A stretch of DNA of 64,000 bases, from positions 1 through 64,000 of the forward strand of contig NZ_WTVK01000009.1 in assembly GCF_012910805.1 (NCBI RefSeq), given 5' to 3'. This DNA comes from Aromatoleum evansii (GTDB lineage Bacteria; Pseudomonadota; Gammaproteobacteria; Burkholderiales; Rhodocyclaceae). The stretch's first letter is position 1; each line of letters begins with the position of its first letter. The notes beneath the pieces were generated by a model that saw only the letters and a list, made by a program, of their open reading frames with translations, was not told the DNA's origin and did not search any database. Of the stretch, positions 28,760-31,458 are shown piece after piece. The translations under genes and the position numbers were made by a program.

Positions 28760-30295
28760 TCAGAGCTGCGGGTTCAGTTTCTCGAACTTGCCGTGCAGCT
28801 TGTTGAGCGCGTTGAGGTAGGCCTTCGCCGACGCGACGATGATGTCGGTATCGGCGCCCTGGCCGTTCACGACCTTGCCGTCCTGCGACAGGCGCACGGT
28901 CACTTCGCCCTGTGCGTCGGTGCCGGTGGTGATCGCGTTCACCGAGTACAGCAGCAGTTCGGTGCCGCTCTTGGCGACTGCTTCGATGGCCTTGAAGGCG
29001 GCATCCACGGGGCCGGACCCTTGGGCGCTGGTGCGCGTCTCCTTGCCGCCGACGGCGATCGTGAGCTCGGCTTGGGGCGTCTCGCCGGTCTCCGAGTGGA
29101 AGCGTGAGGCGAGCAGGCGGAAGTGCTCGTGTTCGGGCGTGACGCCTTCGTCGCTCATCAGTGCGTGGAGGTCCTCGTCGAAGATCTCGTGCTTCTTGTC
29201 GGCGAGTTCCTTGAAGCGCGCAAAGGCGTGGTTGAGCTGGTCCTCGGACGACACGACGATGCCGATCTCCTGCAGGCGGCTGCGGAAGGCGTTGCGGCCC
29301 GAGTGCTTGCCGAGGACGAGCTTGTTGGCGCCCCAGCCGACATCCTCGGCGCGCATGATCTCGTAGGTCTCGCGGTGCTTGAGCACGCCGTCCTGGTGGA
29401 TGCCGGATTCGTGCGAGAAGGCGTTGGCGCCGACGATGGCCTTGTTGGGCTGCACCGGGAAGCCGGTGACGCCGGACACGAGTTTCGACGCGGGCACGAT
29501 CTGCGTGGTATCGATGCGCGTGTCACAGGCGAAGACGTCCTGGCGGGTGCGCACGGCCATGACGATCTCCTCGAGCGCGGCGTTGCCGGCCCGTTCGCCC
29601 AGCCCGTTGATCGTGCACTCGACCTGGCGTGCGCCTGCCAAGACCGCGGCGAGCGAGTTGGCGACCGCGAGGCCGAGGTCGTTGTGGCAATGCACGGACC
29701 AGATCACCTTGTCGGAGTTGGGTACGCGCTCGATCAGGGTGCGGATGGTGTTCGCATACTGGCTGGGCACGTTGTAGCCCACCGTGTCGGGCACGTTGAT
29801 CGTCTTCGCACCGGCGTCGATGACCGCGGTGAAGATGCGTACGAGGAAGTCGATCTCCGAGCGGCCGGCGTCCTCGGCCGAGAACTCGATGTCGTCGGTG
29901 TATTCCTTCGCCCAGCCGATCGCCTTCACCGCCTGCTCGACGACCTGGTCCGGCGTCATGCGCAGCTTCTTCTCCATGTGGATCGGGCTGGTCGCGATGA
30001 AGGTGTGGATGCGCCCGCGTGCGGCCGGGCGGATCGCCTCGCCCGAACGCCGGATGTCGTTCTCGTTGGCGCGGGCCAGCGCGCACACGGTCGATTCCTT
30101 GATCGTCTCGGCGATCGCGCGAACCGATTCGAAGTCGCCGTTCGACGCCGCGGGGAAGCCCGCCTCGATCACGTCGACGCGCATGCGCTCGAGCTGGCGG
30201 GCGATGCGCAGCTTCTCTTCCTGCGTCATCGAGGCACCGGGGCTTTGTTCGCCGTCGCGCAAGGTGGTATCGAAAATGATCAACTGGTCTTTCAT
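28760..30295 (-). CDS. leuA: 2-isopropylmalate synthase
   Basis: LeuA, 511 aa, condenses acetyl-CoA with 2-oxoisovalerate, the first step of leucine synthesis. The N-terminal TIM barrel has [18 protein letters not shown], and [17 protein letters not shown] and [17 protein letters not shown] carry the metal and substrate residues. The C-terminal LeuA dimer domain (about residues 390-511) is the leucine feedback site. The start is the ATG before KDQLIIF, behind CAGGAG. A leucine-rich leader ORF lies 98 bp upstream. Confidence 0.97.
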
Positions 30296-30393
30296 CGTCG
30301 GCTCCTGCTGGGATGTTGGAATACCGGATATGACAAGCGGCCTGCGTCGGGACGCGGGCGAAAGTTTGACAACACGAGGGGATGGGGTCTGAT

Positions 30394-30486
30394 TTAGCGC
30401 GCGGGGCGCAGCAGCGGGCCGGGCAGCAGCAGGTCCGCCGGGAGAAGGCGTCGCGACAGGAGGAGGTGGCCGCTGACGGAGTTCAT
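30394..30486 (-). CDS. leuL: Leucine-rich leader peptide of leuA (30 aa)
   Basis: ATG to TAA, 30 codons with ten leucines in four clusters (HLLL, RRLL, DLLL, PLL). Its position, strand and composition fit a leu-operon leader peptide that senses leucyl-tRNA supply. No Shine-Dalgarno is seen; the predicted promoter would start the RNA at about the ATG, so it may be translated leaderless, as known for trpL of Sinorhizobium. In the 98 bp before leuA I see only a weak hairpin (CCTGCGTC/GACGCGGG) and no U-run, so classical terminator-type attenuation is not evident. The symbol is by analogy. Confidence 0.7.
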
Positions 30487-30493
30487 GCGTACG

Positions 30494-30523
30494 ACTATAA
30501 ACCGCGGATTTGGCCGAAGGCAA
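30494..30523 (-). promoter_or_regulatory. sigma70-type promoter of the leu leader and leuA
   Basis: On the minus strand TTGCCT and TATAGT are 18 bp apart. The -10 box ends 7 bp before the leader ATG, placing the start site at or next to the first codon. Confidence 0.6.
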
Positions 30524-30574
30524 GGACGGCACGCTAAACCTCAGAAAGTCTGCACGGGGCTTGATGCGCGGCAA

Positions 30575-30650
30575 TGTGGGAGCGGCTTCAGCCGCGAAGC
30601 GGTGGTGTCGCAAAGTGATCCGCTCATTCGCGGCTGAAGCCGCTCGCACA
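30575..30650. repeat. REP-like inverted repeat, GGGAGCGGCTTCAGCC family, copy 1
   Basis: 24-nt arms (30575-30598 and 30627-30650) agree in 23 of 24 positions. The core GAGCGGCTTCAGCCGC is itself palindromic. It lies in the gap between the leu promoter and the convergent-side end of the cytochrome cluster (30524-30720). The rest of that gap shows nothing recognisable. A second copy is at 55172-55228. Confidence 0.85.
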
Positions 30651-30720
30651 GGTTCGAACGAGCCCGGCGGCGTCCATGTTCAGATGCTGCCGTGGCGCGC
30701 GATAGGGGCGCGAAGTCGGC

Positions 30721-31458
30721 CTAATCGTCGTCGTGGTGTCGGTCCTGCGCGTCGGCGGTCGCGCTCGGCTGCGGCAGCCATGCCTCGGCCGCGCCGCTCT
30801 GGTAGGCCCACCAGAAGCCCAGTACGGCGACGAGGAGGGCCGTGCCGACGACGCGGTGCGCGTGGCGGATGCCTTGCGCCGGCGCGCCGGGCTTGTTTCC
30901 GGTGAACATCGCGCGGACGAGATTCTCGCGGTGCAGCAGGCTGCTGACGACGACGCCCGCTATATGTACCAGGACGATGGCGAGCATGGTGCTGGCCGCG
31001 CCTTCGTGCAGTTCCTCGAGCCACTCGCCGCCGATGTCCTGGTAGGTCGCAAAGCCGCTCAGGGCGATCAGCGCCCCCAGGCCCAGCATCGCGAAGATCG
31101 CGACCGCGCCGGCGGGGTTGTGGCCGAGGTAGTGCCGAGGCTTCATCGCGAGGAGCGATTTCAGGTAGGAAACGAGCTCGCGCGGCGGGAAGACGAAGCT
31201 CGCGAAACGCGCGTAGCGGGTGCCGACCAGTCCCCACAGGACGCGGAACACGGCGAGCCCGGCGAAAGTGTAGCCGAGCATGACATGCAGGTCGCGCAGG
31301 CGCTCCGAGTCGGACGTCAGCCAAGCGCCGGCGAAGCACAGCGCGAAGCTCCAGTGGAAGATGCGTGTCGGGAGGTCCCACACGCGCACGTTGGTGGCCG
31401 CTTCGGCGGCGCGGGACGCCCCGCCGGCGGCGCTGGGGGTGGTGATGCTGGTGTTCAT
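30721..31458 (-). CDS. Cytochrome b561-type membrane protein of the SHP/DHC cluster
   Basis: A 245-aa b-type cytochrome with four membrane helices. VWDLPTRIFHWSFALCFAGAWL has the first helix His, and HVMLGYTFAGLAVFRVLWG, MLAIVLVHIAGVVVSSLLHREN and HRVVGTALL add further candidate heme ligands. It would pass electrons between the quinone pool and periplasmic c-type cytochromes. A His/Asp-rich cytoplasmic tail ends the protein. Its start overlaps the diheme cytochrome stop (ATGA). Confidence 0.9.
   Translation of the reverse strand: MNTSITTPSAAGGASRAAEAATNVRVWDLPTRIFHWSFALCFAGAWLTSDSERLRDLHVMLGYTFAGLAVFRVLWGLVGTRYARFASFVFPPRELVSYLKSLLAMKPRHYLGHNPAGAVAIFAMLGLGALIALSGFATYQDIGGEWLEELHEGAASTMLAIVLVHIAGVVVSSLLHRENLVRAMFTGNKPGAPAQGIRHAHRVVGTALLVAVLGFWWAYQSGAAEAWLPQPSATADAQDRHHDDD

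Follow-up and report, generated by a model that had tools for sequence, protein, structure and literature searches.

The leuA gene of Aromatoleum evansii is preceded by a small leucine-rich open reading frame (ORF) that we consider rather likely to act as a leucine-responsive, ribosome-mediated attenuator. This leader is probably a leucine sensor, since it recurs in many relatives with the same promoter, the same hairpin at its end and the same C-rich tail. Directly readable from the DNA are the ORF and its enrichment in Leu, the promoter, the sequence of the terminal hairpin (hairpin A), the C-rich tract, a tendency to fold further downstream (hairpin B) and the association with two unlike leuA genes. 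All elements lie on the reverse strand of the window, that is, the whole stretch of 64,000 nucleotides that was analyzed (contig NZ_WTVK01000009.1):

30518..30523, (-) strand: -35 element TTGCCT, 18 nt upstream of the -10 box
30494..30499, (-) strand: -10 element TATAGT, the box ending 7 nt from the leader ATG (30486)
30394..30486, (-) strand: leader ORF, 30 codons, 10 of them Leu, presumably leaderless
30398..30410, (-) strand: hairpin A, UGCGC-CCC-GCGCG, at the end of the leader ORF
30376..30393, (-) strand: C-rich, G-poor tract directly past the leader stop, a candidate rut-like single-stranded region
30340..30359, (-) strand: position of hairpin B, GCC-C-GCGU-CCCG-ACGC-A-GGC, 35 nt past the stop, with no U-tract
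30302..30306, (-) strand: Shine-Dalgarno (SD) sequence of leuA, AGGAG
28760..30295, (-) strand: leuA, 2-isopropylmalate synthase, 511 aa, named by its similarity to leuA homologues

The ten Leu codons of the window leader are grouped as LLL, LL, LLL and LL, and 98 nt separate its stop codon (ending at 30394) from the ATG of leuA (30295). The sequence-only reading had described a 30-codon ORF at this distance from leuA, its ten Leu codons forming four clusters, and a promoter TTGCCT-18-TATAGT whose -10 box ends 7 nt before an ATG that has no SD sequence; the first description proved exact on recheck and the second was confirmed. Among the 384 ATG starts of ORFs of 20–60 codons on both strands of the window, only that of the leuA leader reaches 30% Leu, and this ORF alone has a -10 hexamer (at least 5 of 6 matches) ending 5–8 nt upstream. 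The promoter is the sole promoter-like match in 30150–30750, where 0.1 would be expected from shuffled sequences, and transcription would start at, or adjacent to, the A of the leader ATG.

The same-strand gene upstream of the leader appears, by eye, to encode a cytochrome b561-type protein. Just upstream of the promoter, at 30573–30650, lies a long inverted repeat (GAGCGGCTTCAGCCGCGA...TCGCGGCTGAAGCCGCTC) that looks REP-like by eye. A search with the covariance models of Rfam 15 in the window and five relatives gave no match over the leader, and the hits that were obtained were weak and below the gathering scores; those near the leader correspond to the inverted repeat at 30573–30650, on both strands. 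With no match over the leader, a known Rfam RNA was ruled out as its identity.

A search for leuA at E ≤ 1e-150 gave matches in 86 of 91 genomes of the family and 168 of 200 of the order, and upstream DNA was taken from 160 family/order loci and from 80 further loci of named genomes. Loci in which the leuA motif was not found were dropped (12 of 97 in the genus and named sets, 20 of 160 in the family/order set), leaving 225 readable regions, a set that repeats the same species across two collections and in which some loci of the named collection carry the label Gammaproteobacteria MAGs. A leader filter, based on the -10 box, the Leu count and a distance of 60–170 nt, was passed by 135 of the 225 regions, and a second filter for the CTGCTGCGC-type terminal signature by 124 of those 135. 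These 124 of the 225 regions, including one regarded as an artefact, carry a leader with the shared anatomy; they comprise 17 of 17 regions in Aromatoleum, 35 of 68 in the named collection, 36 of 67 in the family sample and 36 of 73 in the order sample. The artefact (L036) was taken out and redundancy was reduced by an ungapped 85% identity rule, which leaves some close relatives in place, to give 105 sequences. Approximately ten further leaders, missed by the filters, were recognized by eye. Conservation of a Leu-rich leader in relatives, on which the sequence-only reading had staked its proposal in advance, was thus found throughout Aromatoleum (17 of 17 genomes) and in many further families.

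The anatomy shared by these leaders consists of a promoter abutting the ATG, an end hairpin of the form CTGCTGCGC-NNN-GCGCGC, a C-rich and almost G-free tract, and usually a second hairpin; the leaders of relatives are 22–56 codons long, mostly 26–37. Their occurrence varies with the position of a putative upstream pssA gene, read as such from a C-terminal motif: a leader is present in 0 of 41 loci where pssA ends less than 120 nt from leuA, in 65 of 91 where it ends at least 120 nt away, and in 59 of 93 with no pssA in 600 nt. The absence near pssA is partly a matter of geometry, as there is no room for a leader. At seven loci (L222, L243, L247, L251, L255, L260, and L262), a small ORF (MSFDIERLIADFGGPSKLAEDYN...SRAAIYKWRERGS) replaces the leader directly before leuA; it appears Cro/CI-like by eye, with TTAGACA/GTCTAA-like repeats alongside. 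No convincing similar leader was found before ilvB or leuC in Aromatoleum (four loci each, ilvB less L271).

The reading of the leader as a leaderless transcript, made originally from the window, is supported in the relatives by the proximity of the -10 box to the ATG, the fixed spacing of the TTGC element and the missing SD sequence. The start codon is ATG in 104 of the 105 reduced sequences. The gap between the -10 box and the ATG is 6–9 nt in 104 of 105, the box itself being part of the filter, and in 90 it is 6 or 7 nt. No filter was applied upstream of the box; there, 83 of the 105 sequences have TTGC at a distance of 17 or 18 nt (61 and 22), and 12 more have TTG with a different fourth base. 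In all 17 Aromatoleum genomes, TATAGT lies 6–7 nt from the ATG, and the spacing of TTGC is 18 nt. An SD-like string within 18 nt of the ATG occurs in a single sequence of the 105. The conserved TTGC of the -35 element is unusual, with C and not A at the fourth base, and the spacer is A-rich at -12 to -6; the two might conceal a regulator site.

Leu accounts for 25.6% of the leader frame, compared to 6.4% and 10.3% of the other two frames (n = 105), and stop codons are found in frames +1 and +2 in 67 and 26 of the 105 sequences, respectively. In 61 of the 105 sequences the last Leu lies 5 codons upstream of the stop, and the final pair of Leu codons falls within the hairpin-forming sequence. 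The expectation that the Leu clusters would be kept in relatives therefore stood for the enrichment of Leu in frame, but the best-conserved part is this last pair and not the set of four clusters. The window copy itself is missing Leu codons 12 (now R) and 22 (now P), which are kept in the other 16 Aromatoleum genomes. Across the genus, the 3' half of the leader is nearly invariant, including the wobble bases, and the variable sites number 5, 13, and 9 by codon position, so that the constraint at this level is mostly on the nucleotide sequence. The 5, 13, 9 pattern lacks the third-position excess of ordinary coding selection, and this counts against the attenuator model.

The final Leu codon, CUG, contributes its last two bases to the 5' arm of hairpin A, and a single nucleotide separates the 3' arm from the stop. 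Part of the hairpin A sequence was a selection filter for the set in which the terminal codons read CTGCTGCGC-NNN-GCGCGC-stop, with CTGCTGCGC exact in 85 and the complete string in 65 of 105 sequences. In alignment A1, which contains 83 of the 105 leaders picked by hand, the five pairs UGCGC/GCGCG are formed in 96.6% of cells. Proof of the hairpin by covariation failed, as the sequence is too invariant: the value was 0.072, compared to 0.073 with the partners slid by 2 columns, in columns that are nearly invariant, and a two-sided change (GCCC/GGGC) is found in 3 sequences only of the 83. In four lineages (L069, L206, L213, and L216) the frame or the position of the stop has changed and the palindrome is retained; it is on the support of these, and not of covariation, that we speak of a conserved, hairpin-forming sequence.

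Directly downstream, positions +4 to +16 past the leader stop contain 3.3% G and 54.7% C, and are G-free in 71 of 105 sequences; the control region past the leuA stop (68 loci) contains 29% G and 26.4% C, and is G-free in 2 of 68. Pairing of the C-rich tract with downstream RNA is slightly below that of shuffled sequences (z +0.22 ± 0.08, n = 105). The predicted RNA is thus C-rich, G-poor and unstructured, the features looked for in Rho-dependent leader control. The region of hairpin B folds better than shuffles (z -1.23 ± 0.11, 88% negative, n = 105), and a stem of at least 5 pairs is found in 78 of 105 sequences. The window copy is not among the 78: its hairpin B is weak (7 pairs in two stretches), whereas it is strong in many relatives, and, taken as a whole, the 201-nt leader of the window shows no gain in folding over shuffles (z -0.03). 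No runs of T follow hairpin B (mean 1.65 T in 8). The sequence-only reading had remarked that a U-tailed terminator is absent before leuA, and this observation extends beyond the window, with 0 terminator-like sites in the window and 1 in the 105 relatives, where 1.45 would be expected by chance. An intrinsic terminator was therefore rejected as the output of the leader.

We infer that Rho-dependent termination would be the likeliest output, in view of the unpaired, C-rich and G-free tract past the stop and the lack of an intrinsic terminator. In the mechanism that we propose, RNA polymerase would initiate at or beside the ATG of the Leu-rich ORF and, given a start at this position, a 70S ribosome could load immediately on the 5' end without an SD sequence. 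With ample leucyl-tRNA, the ribosome would reach the stop and depart, hairpin A would re-form over the end of the ORF and the C-rich, G-free tract would be exposed in unstructured form; transcription would then end before or early in leuA, most likely via Rho, with hairpin B as a possible pause or polymerase trap. When leucine is short, the ribosome would wait at the Leu codons, chiefly at the last pair inside hairpin A. The waiting ribosome would hold hairpin A open and sit at the edge of the C-rich tract, by which termination would be hindered and leuA made. A ribosome paused at the final Leu codon would extend no further than approximately the stop, and the C-rich tract begins 4 nt beyond; masking of the tract is hard to account for in this way, which counts against the model.

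The leader could instead act on translation, in the way proposed for the LEU element of actinobacteria, its ribosome deciding whether the SD sequence of leuA is free; we regard this as unlikely. Leu codons of the CCUGCUG type in the window can pair with CAGCAGG around the SD sequence (7 bp), and a base stem of a Leu codon run with the SD sequence exists in the actinobacterial LEU element, according to the available text of PMC1262725. In the relatives, duplexes between the ORF and the SD region are slightly above shuffles in strength (z -0.33 ± 0.10), and this weak pairing, like a weak signal between the C-rich tract and the SD region (z +0.26 ± 0.10), fits poorly with a purely transcriptional model. 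However, the mean unpaired probability of the SD sequence is 0.276, compared to 0.271 when the stretch from the stop to the SD sequence is shuffled, and is lower in 52 of 102 cases. The longest helix between the ORF and the SD sequence also does not exceed that obtained with a shuffled SD sequence (z 0.04 ± 0.09, or -0.17 ± 0.09 for the last 36 nt). Sequestration of the SD sequence by the ORF or by the C-rich tract was rejected on these grounds, as base-pair probabilities and helix lengths show no or small excess over shuffles, and it has little support as the output of the leader.

Classical transcription attenuation, with hairpin B as a terminator that lacks a good U-tract (aided, for example, by NusA) and a ribosome that switches between hairpins A and B, is in our judgment improbable. 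The start of hairpin B is held at a steady position despite its differing sequence, at a median of 34 nt past the stop (IQR 30–42) in the 78 of 105 leaders that have it, and duplexes between the end of the ORF and positions +10 to +60 slightly exceed shuffles in strength (z -0.38 ± 0.09). At two loci with a different, yeast-type leuA (L347 and L352), inspection by eye shows ACGGCCCG...CGGGCCGU-UUU past a short leader that contains Leu. Against this stand the count of terminator-like sites, which is no higher than chance, and a terminator scan that gave 0 sites in L347 and L355, although the loop limit of the scanner is 8 and the loop of L347 is longer. Moreover, no shared antiterminator pairing or common helix was found between the ORF end and the downstream sequence in the 105 leaders. 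It is very unlikely that only the promoter and an RNA or protein-binding element are conserved, with an ORF that is incidental or merely carries ribosomes over the element. In favor of this, the terminal CTGCTGCGCNNNGCGCGC is kept at the nucleotide level including the wobble bases, while some lineages end the peptide in a shifted frame (KLRSRAN, LLRGRAH, LLRSRAH), and codon mutations in the leuA leader of Streptomyces coelicolor had, in the available text of PMC1262725, effects inconsistent with classical attenuation, but the Leu enrichment is frame-specific, the ATG is at the same promoter-relative place in 104 of 105 sequences and the distance of 5 codons from the last Leu to the stop recurs in 61.

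The preferred reading, a ribosome-mediated attenuator responding to leucine, gains from the occurrence of the leader before the second, yeast-type leuA. A model (R1) built from the 83-sequence alignment has the leuA leader as its best match in each of the 17 genomes (E ≤ 4.6e-7), which is partly so by construction; six more matches in the genus have E values of 0.013–0.71. One further strong match (E 6.9e-5) lies on a separate contig of G012, a genome listed as 6% contaminated, and one match outside the order was obtained in G372. Both precede a protein starting with ...KYRPF/KYRAF...STDLRDGNQAL, a yeast-type 2-isopropylmalate synthase. The class-wide search with R1, of low sensitivity with 14 candidates scored per genome, gave a match at E ≤ 1e-4 in 1 of 369 genomes besides the source genome. 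Upstream of TIGR00970 (yeast-type leuA) genes, the leader signature is present at 15 of 46 loci, made up of 14 among the 30 in the order and 1 among the 16 readable ones in the class; a -10-like box is found in most of these 15, and their tract contains 51% C and 6% G. The yeast-type copy of the source genome itself (L354) has no leader signature upstream. The leader tracks the reaction and not the gene family, which is good evidence for a role in leucine synthesis. Upstream of the yeast-type leuA of L347 and L352 we observed, by eye, short leaders (MQNLSLALLLMSNGQRK / MQYLSLALLLMSHGQRQ) and, past them, a long-looped GC stem with a U-run.

Upstream of trpE in Aromatoleum (L310–L326), a short Trp-bearing leader ending in SWPAGH* was seen in 15 of 17 loci, with its last UGG in a hairpin (GUGGCC-UGCG-GGCCAC) that reaches the stop codon. 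The layout is that of the leu leader, without a G-free C-rich tract and without an adjoining promoter seen.

A broader reading, which we put forward tentatively as plausible but short of probable, is that leaderless, terminatorless and Rho-operated leucine attenuators are found throughout the betaproteobacteria. One module, in which a 5'-terminal leader ORF is joined to a fixed hairpin around the last Leu codons and to a neighboring rut-like tract, would then serve two non-orthologous-looking types of leuA, with a related module, its last Trp codon inside a hairpin near the stop, before trpE. We found no description of such a leader in Betaproteobacteria in the open-access literature. In Actinobacteria, leu leaders that are leaderless and have no terminator have lacked an explanation since 2005 (PMC1262725, available text). 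The betaproteobacterial counterpart, with its sharply defined and position-conserved parts, occurs in non-pathogenic genera that can be cultured, such as Aromatoleum, and makes ribosome–Rho control from a 5'-terminal ORF testable; if the reading is true, screens based on terminators miss a common mode of control in amino-acid synthesis. In addition, the anatomy of the leader provides a rule by which dozens of small ORFs that lack an annotation could be annotated.

The enterobacterial leu, trp, and his attenuators consist of a leader ORF rich in codons for the end product and preceded by an SD sequence, alternative hairpins and a terminator with a U-tract. The leuA leader resembles them in its codons for the end product, its position on the same strand close to the first gene and its possible alternative hairpins. 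It differs in that no U-tract terminator is found in the window, nor above chance in the 105 relatives, and in that the leader has no SD sequence. In Rho-dependent leader-peptide control of the tnaC type, the nascent peptide arrests the ribosome at the stop codon. The likeness here is a C-rich, unstructured tract directly past the leader stop with no intrinsic terminator; the signal for the leuA leader would, in contrast, be a shortage of charged tRNA, and the action of Rho is proposed from the tract. The trpL leader of Sinorhizobium meliloti, a leaderless leader peptide with a terminator-containing attenuator, is similar as a leaderless leader of a biosynthetic gene in a proteobacterium, and differs in sensing Trp, in belonging to an alphaproteobacterium and in its terminator.

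In layout, the leuA leader is closest to the leuA leaders of actinobacteria. The available text of PMC1262725 describes the LEU element of these organisms, a leader with a Leu run before leuA that is shared with the betaproteobacterial leader, and leaves its mode of regulation open. That element has a pseudoknot and a base stem of Leu codons with the SD sequence, whereas here two tests gave no such pairing excess and a looser third a small one; its leaders have 15–16 codons (PMC1262725, available text), whereas those of betaproteobacteria are longer and add hairpin A, the C-rich tract and hairpin B. For the leu leader of C. diphtheriae, the accessible part of PMC5784534 leaves the start site unassigned, and a search of PMC2965389 by term did not turn up leuA. 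In S. lividans, LeuL1 is leaderless and lacks a typical Rho-independent terminator, as described in the available text of PMC8079986, and in both respects is like the betaproteobacterial leader. Finally, the enzyme regulated in actinobacteria is the yeast-type leuA, as judged from the TIGR00970 matches in C. glutamicum, and the betaproteobacterial leader is found before this type of gene as well, at 15 of 46 loci.
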